64,000 nucleotides of DNA from the NCBI RefSeq assembly GCF_006716765.1, contig NZ_VFPO01000001.1, positions 4,464,001-4,528,000 of the forward strand, written 5' to 3'. Position 1 is the stretch's first letter; each line of letters starts with the position of its first letter. Both the position numbers and the translations under genes were made by a program. The notes under the pieces were generated by a model. It saw only the letters and a list, made by a program, of their open reading frames with translations. It had not been told where the DNA came from and searched no databases. This DNA is from Actinomadura hallensis. GTDB taxonomy: Bacteria; Actinomycetota; Actinomycetes; Streptosporangiales; Streptosporangiaceae. Positions 37,315-42,264 of this stretch are shown piece by piece.

Positions 37315-38886
37315 TCACCGGGCGAACTCGGTGGCGCGGGACTCGCGGACCACGGTGACGCGGATCTGACCCGGGTACGTCAGCTCGTCCTCGACCTGCT
37401 TGGCGATGTCGCGGGCGATGACCTGCGCCTGGATGTCGTCGACGGCGTCGGGCTTGACCATCACCCGGATCTCGCGGCCGGCCTGCATCGCGAAGACCTT
37501 CTCGACGCCCGGGTGCTTCTCGCGGGCGATCTCCTCCAGCCGCTCCAGGCGCTTGACGTACGCCTCCAGCGACTCCCTGCGCGCCCCCGGGCGGCTGCCG
37601 CTGATGGCGTCGGCGGCCTGCGTGATGACCGCCTCGACGGTCCTGACCTCGACCTCGTTGTGGTGCGCCTCGATGGCGTGCACGACGTCCTCGTCCTCGC
37701 CGTACCGGCGGGCGATCTCCGCGCCGATCAGCGCGTGGCTGCCCTCGACCTCGTGGGTCAGCGCCTTGCCGATGTCGTGCAGCAGCGTGCCCCGCTTGGC
37801 GACGTCCACCGGGAGCCGCAGCTCGCTCGCCATGATCCCCGCGAGGTGCGCGGACTCGATCAGGTGCTTCAGGACGTTCTGCCCGTAGGACGTGCGGTAC
37901 CGCAGCTGGCCGAGCAGCGCGATCAGCTCCGGATGCATGTCGGCGATGCCGACCTCCACCAGCGCGTCCTCGCCGGCCCGCACGCACAGCTGCTCCACGT
38001 CGCGCTTGCTGCGCTCGTAGACCTCCTCGATGCGCTGCGGGTGGATCCGCCCGTCGAGGACGAGCTTCTCCAGCGTCAGCCGCCCGACCTCGCGCCGCAC
38101 GGGGTCGAAGCAGCTCAGCAGGACCGCCTCCGGCGTGTCGTCGATGATCAGGTTGACGCCGGTGGTGCTCTCGAACGCGCGGATGTTGCGGCCCTCGCGG
38201 CCGATGATGCGGCCCTTCATCTCGTCGCTCGGCAGGTGCAGGACCGACACGACCGACTCGGCCGTCTGCTCGCTGGCGACCCGCTGGATCGCCAGCGTGA
38301 CGATCTTGCGGGCGCGCTTCTCGCCCTCGGCCCGCGCCGCGTTCTCGATCTCGCGGGTGATCGGGATGGCCTCGCGCTTGGCCTGGTTCTCGATGGAGGC
38401 GACCAGCTCCGCCTTGGCCTGCGCGGCGGTGAGCCCCGCCGCCCGCTCGAGCACCTTGCGGCGCTCCTCGGCGACGCCGTCGAGCTCCCGCTCGCGCACT
38501 TCCAGCGCCCGCTTGGTTTCGGTGAGCCGCCCCTGCCACTCCTCCAGGCGCCGGACCTCCCCGTCGAGGCGCTGCTCCCGCTCGGCGAGCCGCGCCTCCC
38601 GGCGCTCCAGGTCCTCCCGGAGGGAGCGGAGATCCTCGCGGAGGGCCCGGCCCTCCTCCTCGGCCTCCGCCCGCGCGGCGGACGCGATGCGCTGCGCGTC
38701 CCGCTCCGCCCTCTCCAGGACCTCCTCGGCCTCACGCTGGGCCTTGGCGCGGATCTGGTCGGCCTCGCCCTGGGCACGGGCGATCTCCGCGGCCGCCTTG
38801 CCCGGCGTTCCCGGCCGCCACAGAACGACGATCACGAGAGCGACCAGGGCCACCAGCAGCGCTGCACCCAGCAGGACGCTCTCCAT
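37315..38886 (-). CDS. rny: Ribonuclease Y
   Basis: 523 residues. RNase Y is a membrane-anchored endoribonuclease that starts mRNA decay. There is an N-terminal membrane helix (about residues 4-25), a long charged coiled coil (about 30-190), a KH domain with GRIIGREGRNIRAFE, and an HD domain with TLLHDIGKALTHE carrying the metal-binding HD pair. AGGAAGG lies ten bases before ATG 38886. It precedes no gene on its strand and meets the S9 peptidase at a shared terminator. Confidence 0.96.
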   Translation of the reverse strand: MESVLLGAALLVALVALVIVVLWRPGTPGKAAAEIARAQGEADQIRAKAQREAEEVLERAERDAQRIASAARAEAEEEGRALREDLRSLREDLERREARLAEREQRLDGEVRRLEEWQGRLTETKRALEVRERELDGVAEERRKVLERAAGLTAAQAKAELVASIENQAKREAIPITREIENAARAEGEKRARKIVTLAIQRVASEQTAESVVSVLHLPSDEMKGRIIGREGRNIRAFESTTGVNLIIDDTPEAVLLSCFDPVRREVGRLTLEKLVLDGRIHPQRIEEVYERSKRDVEQLCVRAGEDALVEVGIADMHPELIALLGQLRYRTSYGQNVLKHLIESAHLAGIMASELRLPVDVAKRGTLLHDIGKALTHEVEGSHALIGAEIARRYGEDEDVVHAIEAHHNEVEVRTVEAVITQAADAISGSRPGARRESLEAYVKRLERLEEIAREKHPGVEKVFAMQAGREIRVMVKPDAVDDIQAQVIARDIAKQVEDELTYPGQIRVTVVRESRATEFAR

Positions 38887-39170: not shown

Positions 39171-39713
39171 TCAGTCCGGAGGGTCGGGGATGAGTTCGGG
39201 GTCGGCGCCCTCCTCGGTCAGGGCCTCCCTGACCACGCGGTATGCGAGGCCGGGCGGGTAGCCCTTCCGCGCGAGCATGCCGACGAGCCGCCGCATGCGC
39301 CTGGCCGGGTCGGCGCCCCTGGTGGACGGGAGCCTGCGGGCCACGAGGGCGCGGGCGGTCTCCTCCTCCTGGGCGGGGTCGAGCGTCTCGACGGCGTCGT
39401 TGACCGTCTCGTCGGCGACGCCGCGGCGGCGCAGCTCGTGGGCGAGGGCCCGCCGGGCGAGGCCGCGCCCGGCGTGGCGGGACTGGACCCACGCCTGCGC
39501 GAACGCCTCGTCGTCGATGAGGCCCACGTCGGTGAACCGCCCGAGCACCGCTTCGGCGGTCTCGTCCGGGATGCCCTTGCGCCGCAGTGCGTCCGCGAGT
39601 TCCGCGCGGGTACGGGGCGACGCGGACAGCATCCGCAGGCAGATCTCCCGCGCGGCCCCCTCGGGATCCGCAGCGGCCTGCTTCCGCCGGCCCTTCCGCG
39701 CCGGCTCAGTCAT
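39171..39713 (-). CDS. recX: RecA regulatory protein RecX
   Basis: About 180 residues. RecX binds RecA filaments and limits their activity. Three RecX helical repeats are visible: AREICLRMLSASPRTRAELADALRRKGI, FTDVGLIDDEAFAQAWVQSRH and GLARRALAHELRRRGVADE. ATG 39713 overlaps the end of the small upstream ORF by eight bases (ATGACTGA). It belongs to the recA operon but is separated from recA by that small ORF instead of following it directly. Confidence 0.93.
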   Translation of the reverse strand: MTEPARKGRRKQAAADPEGAAREICLRMLSASPRTRAELADALRRKGIPDETAEAVLGRFTDVGLIDDEAFAQAWVQSRHAGRGLARRALAHELRRRGVADETVNDAVETLDPAQEEETARALVARRLPSTRGADPARRMRRLVGMLARKGYPPGLAYRVVREALTEEGADPELIPDPPD

Positions 39714-39908: not shown

Positions 39909-42110
39909 TCAGGAATCGCCGGGCTTGGCCTTGGCCGTCCTCCTGCCGGCGGGCTTGGCGGGCTCGGGGGACGCGGCGGCGTCGGGCGCGGCCGGGGCGG
40001 CGGGCTCGGCCTCGCGGTCGACCTTCGGGCCGATGCCGAGCTTCTCCTTGATCTTCTTCTCGATCCCGTCGGCCAGGTCGGGGTTGGCCTTGAGGAAGTT
40101 GCGGGCGTTCTCCTTGCCCTGGCCGAGCTGGTCGCCGTCGTAGGTGTACCAGGCGCCGGACTTGCGGACGAAGCCGTGCTCCACGCCGAGGTCGATCAGG
40201 CCGCCCTCGCGGCTGATGCCCTGGCCGTAGAGCAGGTCGAAGTCGGCGACGCGGAACGGCGGGGCCATCTTGTTCTTGACGACCTTGACCCGGACCCGGT
40301 TGCCGACGGGCTCGGTGCCGTCCTTGAGGGTCTCGATGCGGCGGACGTCCAGCCGGACGGAGGCGTAGAACTTCAGCGCCCGGCCGCCGGTGGTCGTCTC
40401 GGGGCTGTTGTGGACCATCACACCGTCGACGAAGTAGTTGTGCGACCCCTCGACCTCGATGTCGAACTTCTTCATCGAGCGGGTCTTCGGCTTGACATGC
40501 ACGTCGATGATCCGGCTGGGCACCAACCTGGGCTCCGGGTCGGCGAACTGCGGCTCGACCGTGCACTGGCCTCGGAAGCGCGGCAGCAGCTTGTGCTCCA
40601 TCGACTCGGGCACGTAAGGAGCGATGAGCTCCTGGAACTTCACCGAAGCCGCGGTCGTGAACTGGATGACGCTGACGGCCCGCGCACCCCTCGTCGTGAG
40701 CTTCACGTCCAGCCCGTGGGTGTCGCGGAGGTACTCCACGACTCGGGCCCGCGAGCCCGGGCTGAAGGCTTCCACACAGATCTCGATGCGGCCCGTACCT
40801 CCCTCGGTGCGCTTCTGGACCCCCTTGGACCGAACGGTGAAGCAGCCGTCGTCCATGTACCAGACGGCCAGGGCGAGCGGGCCGAGGGCCTTCAGGTAAT
40901 CCCAGGTGAGGTGCTTCTTCCCGTCCCCGAAGTAGACGACCTGCCGAAGCTCGTCCAGTTCCGGCAGCGGGCTGAAGTCCGCGAACACCGCCCCCTTGGC
41001 ATTGGTCGTGCGGCTGTGCCCGATATTGCCCAGCAGGGATGTCTTCCAGTCGAGGTACGCCTCCTGGTCGGCGCCGTGCCCCAGGCGGAAGCGCACACCC
41101 GTGCGGCCGCGGCGGTTCGGTGACAGGTGCCCGTCGCCCATCACCGAGCCGAGCACCACCTGCCACTGCTGCTCGCTGAGACGGTGGGTCTCCATGAGCA
41201 TGACCCGGTCTCCCGCGACCAGCTCGCCGGCCTCCCTGTAGCCGCCCGGCGTGCGGATGAGGTGATTCTCGGTCGCGGCGAACTGCGCCCGGCCGTTACC
41301 GCCCGACTTCGCCACGGTGAACTGGAGGAAGTGGTCGGCGGTGCCGTTGTCGAACCAGTTGACGATGCGCTTGGGGACGATCCTGTCCTGCTCCGGGTCG
41401 TAGGACAGTACCTCGACGTCCATCCTCTGGTTGACGATCTTGCCGATCTTCTCCTGCGACCCGTCCGCGAGCGTCACCCGGGTGCCGTAACTCATGCACC
41501 CGAACATCACGCCGACCTTCTCGCGGAGCTGGTTGATGAAGATCGCGGTCGTCTTGGTGGAGTTGATCGCGCCGGTGAGCTTGCGCAGGGCCTGCGACAT
41601 GAGGCGGGCCTGGAGGCCGACGTGGCTGTCGCCCATCTCGCCCTCGATCTCCGCGCGGGGGACGAGCGCGGCGACGGAGTCGATCACCACGATGTCGATC
41701 GCGCCGGAGCGGATCAGCATGTCGGTGATCTCCAGGGCCTGCTCGCCGGTGTCGGGCTGGGAGACCAGCAGGGCGTCGATGTCGACGCCGAGCTTGGACG
41801 CGTACTCGGGGTCGAGGGCGTGCTCGGCGTCCACGAACGCGGCGATGCCGCCCTTCTTCTGGACGTTGGCCACGGCGTGGAGCGCGATGGAGGTCTTGCC
41901 GGAGCCCTCGGGGCCGTACACCTCCACGACGCGGCCGCGGGGCAGGCCGCCGATGCCGAGCGCGATGTCGAGGGAGATCGCCCCGGTGGGGATCACCTCG
42001 ACCGGCGCCCGCGCCTCCTCGCCCATCCGCATGACCGAACCCTTGCCGAACTGCCGCTCGATCTGGGCGAGGGCGGTTTCGAGAGCCTTCTCCCGGTCGT
42101 TCGCTGCCAT
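39909..42110 (-). CDS. recA: Recombinase RecA, interrupted by an intein
   Basis: 733 residues before splicing, 369 after removal of the 364-residue intein (normal for RecA). RecA forms filaments on single-stranded DNA, drives strand exchange and triggers LexA self-cleavage. The Walker [41 protein letters not shown] and the L1/L2 regions are intact in the exteins. The C-terminal tail is Ala/Pro-rich and acidic to basic, as in other actinobacteria. ATG 42110 is preceded by AAGGACACC. It heads an operon with the 62-aa ORF and recX. Confidence 0.97.
40407..41498 (-). other. RecA intein with LAGLIDADG homing endonuclease
   Basis: 364 residues within RecA, from Cys205 to Asn568 of the precursor, in frame. 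Splicing residues are present: Cys1 in [15 protein letters not shown], a block-B TxxH-type ATENHLIRT, the penultimate His and last Asn in GVMVHN, and Ser as first C-extein residue (SPETTTGG). Two endonuclease motifs, [11 protein letters not shown] and LAVWYMDDG, keep their acidic residues, so homing activity may persist. The insertion point follows EKVGVMFG, in the second DNA-binding loop, the site I recall for the M. leprae RecA intein. Confidence 0.95.
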
Positions 42111-42248: not shown

Positions 42249-42264
42249 CCGAACATCCGTTCGA
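42249..42264. promoter_or_regulatory. SOS box (LexA operator)
   Basis: CCGAACATCCGTTCGA; on the recA strand TCGAAC-GGAT-GTTCGG, 11 of 12 positions of the actinobacterial consensus TCGAAC-N4-GTTCGA. It lies about 140 bases upstream of recA and 92 upstream of the divergent ATP-grasp gene. TAAGCT (42248-42243 leftward) next to it could be the -10 of a LexA-controlled recA promoter. Confidence 0.85.

Follow-up and report, generated by a model that had tools for sequence, protein, structure and literature searches.

A RecA intein of the Mycobacterium leprae type in Actinomadura hallensis, a probable homing element with a patchy distribution among actinomycetes

Introduction

The closest described systems to the element reported here are two mycobacterial inteins that interrupt the recombinase RecA: that of Mycobacterium leprae, which we take to be the RecA-b allele (PI-MleI), and that of M. 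tuberculosis (RecA-a, PI-MtuI), whose insertion site is presumably VKNK/C (a slash marks the point of insertion throughout). The M. leprae-type RecA intein has been treated in reviews on pathogenic mycobacteria (PMC8529194, PMC5874633). The M. leprae RecA precursor is described in one of these as unspliced in E. coli (PMC5874633), and splicing can therefore not be taken for granted in all hosts. The intein of P. horikoshii RadA likewise sits in a RecA-family recombinase and is reported to splice conditionally (PMC5790916), but its host is archaeal and its endonuclease has been lost; it is likened here by description only. More than 48% of actinobacterial genomes are reported to contain inteins (PMC5050341), and the occurrence of an intein in this phylum is therefore unsurprising.

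Here, we describe an intein in the recA gene of Actinomadura hallensis, found within a stretch of 64,000 nucleotides (the window). The element is very probably a class 1, full-length RecA-b intein with a LAGLIDADG endonuclease, which excises itself from its host protein, homes into empty alleles, and is patchily distributed through gain and loss within genera. It is a genuine and ordinary member of a known intein family that is rare in its host genus. It resembles the M. leprae RecA intein in insertion site, length (364 versus 365 residues), LAGLIDADG layout, and sequence (67% identity to the intein of G710, a genome taken to be M. leprae TN), but differs in host order and in its place on the intein tree. 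With the M. tuberculosis RecA intein, it shares the host gene and the splicing domain, but not the insertion site. The nearest structures by sequence in the PDB are M. tuberculosis RecA intein constructs (2in0, E 1.6e-10, residues 1-105). The most similar intein of all, that of Actinomadura latina RecA, is 87% identical and occupies the same site in the same genus, yet the two host lineages are not sisters in a tree of neighbouring genes.

Structure of the interrupted recA gene

RecA is encoded in two pieces around a 364-residue insert, all within one minus-strand reading frame (42242-39909). The parts are arranged as follows:

41499..42110, minus strand: RecA N-extein (PF00154), 204 aa, with its ATG at 42110 and ending in EKVGVMFG
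40407..41498, minus strand: RecA-b (M. leprae-type) intein, 364 aa, with Cys1 at 41496-41498 and Asn364 at 40407-40409
40635..41165, minus strand: LAGLIDADG_2 homing endonuclease domain, intein residues 112-288, with acidic motif residues D122 and D216/D217
39909..40406, minus strand: RecA C-extein, from Ser+1 (AGC at 40404-40406) to the stop, 165 aa (coding 40406-39912)

The ATG at 42110 (MAANDREK...) is the most likely start of recA. The insert is in frame and without a stop; it begins with C1, ends with H363-N364, and is followed by Ser+1, and the joined exteins (204 + 165) give a RecA of 369 aa. Pfam matches RecA (PF00154) in two stretches (E 1.9e-134) and LAGLIDADG_2 (PF03161) across residues 112-288 (E 8.2e-40). 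The Pfam Intein_splicing match (E 1.6e-5) lies under its family cut-off, and the NCBIfam matches intein_Nterm (E 1.7e-11) and intein_Cterm (E 1.0e-4) both lie above theirs. The first-pass annotation had proposed, from the letters alone, an in-frame 364-residue intein with Cys1, a terminal His-Asn, Ser+1, and two LAGLIDADG motifs, flanked by exteins that join to a 369-residue RecA, and this description is borne out in every part.

The residues of a class 1 intein are present (C1, T76 and H79 of the block B T..H pair, H363, N364, and Ser+1), as are two LAGLIDADG motifs with their acidic residues D122 and D216/D217 and the PF03161 match. The VMFG/SPETTTGG site, together with full-length homology to inteins found there, identifies the RecA-b allele. 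A chance origin of these features is excluded. Because recA is uninterrupted in 59 of 62 congeners, the exact boundaries of the insert are visible: it lies between VMFG and SPETTTGG, a point that aligns to MFG/NPETTTGG of E. coli RecA. We take this stretch to be the DNA-binding loop L2, and would accordingly expect little or no DNA binding by the unspliced precursor.

Both activities of the intein look maintained, as judged from its invariant residues and low dN/dS. Across 153 distinct inteins of at least 340 aa that could be extracted by script (loci where the pattern failed were excluded), C1, T76, H79, D346, H363, and N364 are identical throughout. D216 is likewise an aspartate in 153/153 and D122 in 146/153, while D192, which aligns with Asp193 of the M. 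leprae type, is an aspartate in 109/153 and a gap in 29. Purifying selection is indicated by a dN/dS of 0.12 over the entire intein when the window is compared with A. latina, with values of 0.13 in the splicing parts and 0.12 in the endonuclease. An AlphaFold2 model of the intein, built from 47 sequences, has a mean pLDDT of 92.6 and shows beta strands at the two termini (residues 7-105 and 322-363), with helices and strands mixed in between.

We infer from these features that the intein would be translated within RecA, in the presumed loop L2, and that its excision would use Cys1, Asn364, and Ser+1 and yield a RecA of 369 aa. Its endonuclease would cut intein-free recA alleles at the same place, after which the element would be copied into the empty allele by gene conversion; purifying selection, patchiness, and the codons flanking the insertion speak for such cutting indirectly. 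The outcome is an element of patchy occurrence that comes and goes within genera.

Mini-inteins of 166-170 aa without an endonuclease occupy the same RecA site in three genomes (loci L205, L206, and L207 in G438, G341, and G538), all belonging to one family (f22) of the phylum sample. The endonuclease can thus be lost at the VMFG site.

The recA neighbourhood and conditional splicing

Three further features surround recA:

42249..42264, minus strand: SOS-box-like palindrome TCGAACGGATGTTCGG, about 140 nt upstream of the recA ATG
39171..39713, minus strand: recX, downstream of recA, with three RecX Pfam domains above cut-off
37315..38886, minus strand: RNase Y gene (rny), downstream of recA

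The exact pattern GAACN4GTTC occurs once in the window, at 42251-42262. Since 0.58 copies are expected by chance and 46 of 100 shuffles had one, it is the position before recA, not the occurrence, that argues for an SOS-like box. The 16-base box, a putative LexA site, has one mismatch to the SOS consensus and is the best of seven matches with up to three mismatches (3.65 expected).

An insertion that aligns to the stretch of E. coli RecA taken to be loop L2, combined with an SOS-like box upstream, brings to mind conditional splicing, in which the insert keeps RecA inactive until it is released by DNA damage, single-stranded DNA, or redox conditions, and so tunes the SOS response. There are precedents: single-stranded DNA speeds splicing of the P. 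horikoshii RadA intein (PMC5790916), and splicing of M. leprae RecA is reported to depend on the host (PMC5874633). However, the 59 of 62 congeneric recA genes that have no intein imply no host need for it, and in the portion of the literature available to us, the only work found on recA intein splicing with the SOS response concerned a BCG recA mutant. We regard conditional splicing as improbable for this locus; a role as a brake on the SOS response, as the first-pass annotation suggested, is possible by analogy. Since closely related carriers and non-carriers of the intein can be paired in this genus, it is good material for testing whether splicing has an effect on RecA supply.

Distribution among actinomycetes

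A scan of genome contigs returned 106 relatives, and the best 80 of these all belong to Actinomycetota. These 80 range from Micromonospora, Streptomyces, Nocardiopsis, Rhodococcus, and Nocardia to Acidimicrobiia; the closest is the A. latina intein (L003/G166) at 87% identity, and residues 1-364 are covered in 78 of the 80, at 58-87% identity. Within the genus, the intein is present in 3 of 65 genomes (the window species, A. latina or G166, and G181); recA was located in 62 of the 65, with 59 copies uninterrupted and three carrying the intein. At the family level, 33 of 150 genomes matched at E<=1e-10. One of them (G001, 30% identity) was rejected as a RecA-b carrier because its recA site is empty, giving 32/150, and 29 of these 32 were read at the recA site. 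A phylum sample gave matches in 45 of 396 genomes at E<=0.001, some of them weak or in other genes.

A further genus, that of G601, has the intein in 57 of 297 genomes. It is taken to be Mycobacterium because one member, G710, is taken to be M. leprae TN. The G710 intein is 365 aa long, lies at the same site, and is 67% identical to the window intein, so the likeness to the M. leprae element that the first-pass annotation had pointed out holds. The M. leprae-type RecA intein is, in short, a widespread element of many actinomycetes, and its presence in any single species says little about need.

Intein carriers within the genus

The three intein carriers do not form a clade in the genus, as shown by topology tests on two trees. 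In a recA tree of 62 congeners and four additional genomes (G140, among the latter, failed to stay outside), the window species belongs to a four-species clade with G193, G195, and G168, all with empty sites (support 100/99, starred). This clade persists when the 60 nt flanking the insertion on either side are left out (98/96, starred). A. latina and G181 are placed away from it, and a single clade of all three carriers is rejected (AU p 0.0003, recA minus 60 nt on each side). A clade of the window species and A. latina is not rejected by recA alone (AU p 0.095), but is rejected by an independent tree of recX and rny (AU p 0.0003). That tree was built with 19 of 21 genomes, G152 and G160 having yielded too little sequence; G193 is absent because its contig ends just past recA. 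It places the window species with G195 and G168 (100/99, starred) and A. latina with G175 and G110 (95/98, starred).

The G181 intein is of a 368-aa subtype, unlike the 364-aa subtype of the window, and groups with inteins from Haloechinothrix alba, a Mycobacterium bin, Nocardiopsis, and a Streptosporangiaceae bin (99, starred; two of the four are metagenome bins). Its GC3 is 0.766, and the four-fold divergence of recX and rny between G181 and its empty sister G176 is 0.10. On the strength of this grouping, its GC3, and its very close empty sisters, the G181 intein is best read as a recent arrival.

Codons flanking the insertion site

Only 5 of 987 extein sites in G181 differ from all four of its empty sisters (G176, G177, G201, and G205), and three of these five lie at -1, 0, and +1 of the insertion. 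Within the genus, the codon for Ser+1 is AGY in all three intein alleles and in 4 of 59 empty alleles. In the family sample of 150 genomes, it is AGY in 29/29 intein alleles read, the window included (all but L109 of the 30 loci retrieved; G072 and G107 lie outside these 30). Among empty sites, which were found by pattern and taken as empty recA, with eight genomes undecided, 29 are AGY and 81 TCN (29/110). The link between AGY and the intein has a Fisher p of 4e-14, uncorrected for kinship, and by hand count the intein allele is AGY in 7/7 genera that have both a read intein allele and a congener with a TCN empty site. AGY is not needed, since TCN follows the intein in 36 of the 38 alleles read from three named relatives and the presumed Mycobacterium genus (39 tried, intein alleles only).

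The link may be a footprint of co-conversion or a preference for certain targets. The principle of co-conversion has been described before, for a residue next to an invading intein in haloarchaeal MCM (PMC10643990). A bolder and rather doubtful reading is that homing leaves a footprint of a few bases (GGR/AGY, the codons for Gly -1 and Ser +1), and that intein-free species with GGR/AGY, such as the three sisters of the window species, are ghosts of lost inteins. If true, gain and loss could be dated across actinomycetes from empty sites alone, and flank codons are in any case a possible test of how much DNA travels with an intein. The ghost reading is not upheld as a result: it is suggestive in the clade of the window species, yet empty sites with AGY also turn up often in genera of the family where the sample revealed no intein (21/86, versus 8/24 in intein-holding genera; hand count).

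Age of the intein

Four-fold divergence between the window species and A. latina is 0.10-0.15 in the exteins, 0.42 in the intein, and 0.33-0.35 in recX and rny. Across close pairs, the intein is at least twice as diverged as the exteins in 28/52 and at most 1.5 times in 19/52, with the window and A. latina ranked second. An excess of this kind was considered as proof of independent gain, but this argument is withdrawn, as the neighbouring recX and rny are almost as diverged (the intein is 1.2-1.3 times as diverged as they are). Given the divergence of these neighbours, it is the recA exteins that are unusually slow at synonymous sites (GC3 0.98-0.99), and the intein of this pair dates from about the time of the species split.

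For the window species and A. latina, the data favour neither vertical descent with many losses nor separate gains. Under descent, their common ancestor had the intein, most congeners lost it, and the GGR/AGY flank in G193, G195, and G168 is a leftover; we consider this a serious possibility, if somewhat short of an even chance. An intein divergence close to that of recX and rny is what would be expected without recent transfer, and the two inteins are sisters (96, starred). Of the four empty sites in the genus that read AGY, three are those of the three sisters of the window species, and the GC3 of the window intein (0.926) is near that of the recX frame (0.921), below rny (0.975) and the exteins, with the G181 intein at 0.766. 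Set against this, descent needs up to eleven losses where two gains would do (counted by eye on the recA tree), the near relatives of A. latina (G160, G175, and G110) have TCN flanks, and AGY empty sites in the family are not clearly commoner in intein-holding genera (8/24 versus 21/86, as above).

In six Micromonospora and Verrucosispora loci (L009, L012, L013, L017, L028, and L076), the intein is less diverged at four-fold sites than recX and rny in 15/15 pairs, with ratios of 0.29-0.83 (79-89 flank sites per pair). These values hint at intein exchange among the six.

Relation to mycobacterial inteins

The first-pass annotation had weighed long persistence against transfer between actinomycete orders, in a host that it took not to be a mycobacterium. 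The host is indeed of another genus, that of A. latina. Persistence is supported in part, by the spread of the intein across Actinomycetota, and so is mobility, by its patchiness and by carriers that are not a clade. Direct exchange with mycobacteria is not seen in the intein tree, which was built from 81 rows by a quick method with SH-aLRT as its sole support measure, and where the eight named Mycobacteriales inteins of the 364/365-aa type form a starred group of their own with G710 (99); one more Mycobacteriales intein, L071, is of the 368-aa subtype. The window intein pairs with A. latina (96, starred) within a set of 22 rows (95, starred) that comprises 17 named Streptosporangiales, four Streptomyces, and the window.

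A recent transfer between mycobacteria and Actinomadura would account for the shared site, shared family, and 67% identity to the G710 intein. It is nevertheless a most improbable explanation, given the separate mycobacterial group, the pairing with A. latina, and identities that reach 73% at most in the presumed Mycobacterium genus, as compared with 87% for the A. latina intein.

Comparison with an extein tree (80 rows) was rough, because ten of its rows are unreliable, as they include a portion of another intein (L013, L020, L023, L030, L033, L039, L056, L054, L062, and L068). Order labels change 15 times on the intein tree and 14 times on the extein tree, where the least possible is 13; agreement with the orders is thus nearly as good for inteins as for exteins. 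The four Streptomyces inteins nested among Streptosporangiales may represent one transfer between orders in the subtype of the window, and mixing of orders is clearer in the 368-aa subtype found in G181.

Possible vectors and other inteins

A search at E<=1e-5 of 50,697 records from phages and 72,556 from plasmids yielded no match that reached 60% identity, and a phage or plasmid vector was set aside at that level. Below 60% identity, 34 phage and 113 plasmid records matched. Acinetobacter accounts for 111 of the 113 plasmid records; the 19 among the matches listed (H22-H40) are mostly of about 110 kb and carry a distant intein of about 23% identity, in several cases under a gene annotated as RecA. 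Viral contigs contributed three loci at 25-39% identity. One of the three (L245:1694-3982) encodes a phage RecA-like protein that is interrupted at the same site by an intein with about 40% identity to that of the window; it is a possible phage reservoir.

RecA can also hold further inteins. Some loci of the relatives have inteins at the VKNK/C site, and seemingly three inteins interrupt one RecA in two genomes (L201/L209 in G579 and L204/L208 in G602), at the P-loop (GK/C, partly seen), VMFG/C, and VKNK/C. Of 156 distinct VMFG-intein alleles, at least 17 also have a P-loop intein and seven a VKNK intein. The P-loop of the window RecA, in the N-extein (41499-42110), reads GPEGSGKTS, as in congener G195, and that of E. 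coli reads GPESSGKTT; this variant might affect the P-loop intein site. The host genome itself has a second intein of 376 aa (L116, G000:C1:4794850-4798122, locus nt 1501-2628), which lies in the Walker A motif of an SNF2 helicase (GLGK/C...HN/T) and contains a LAGLIDADG_3 domain.
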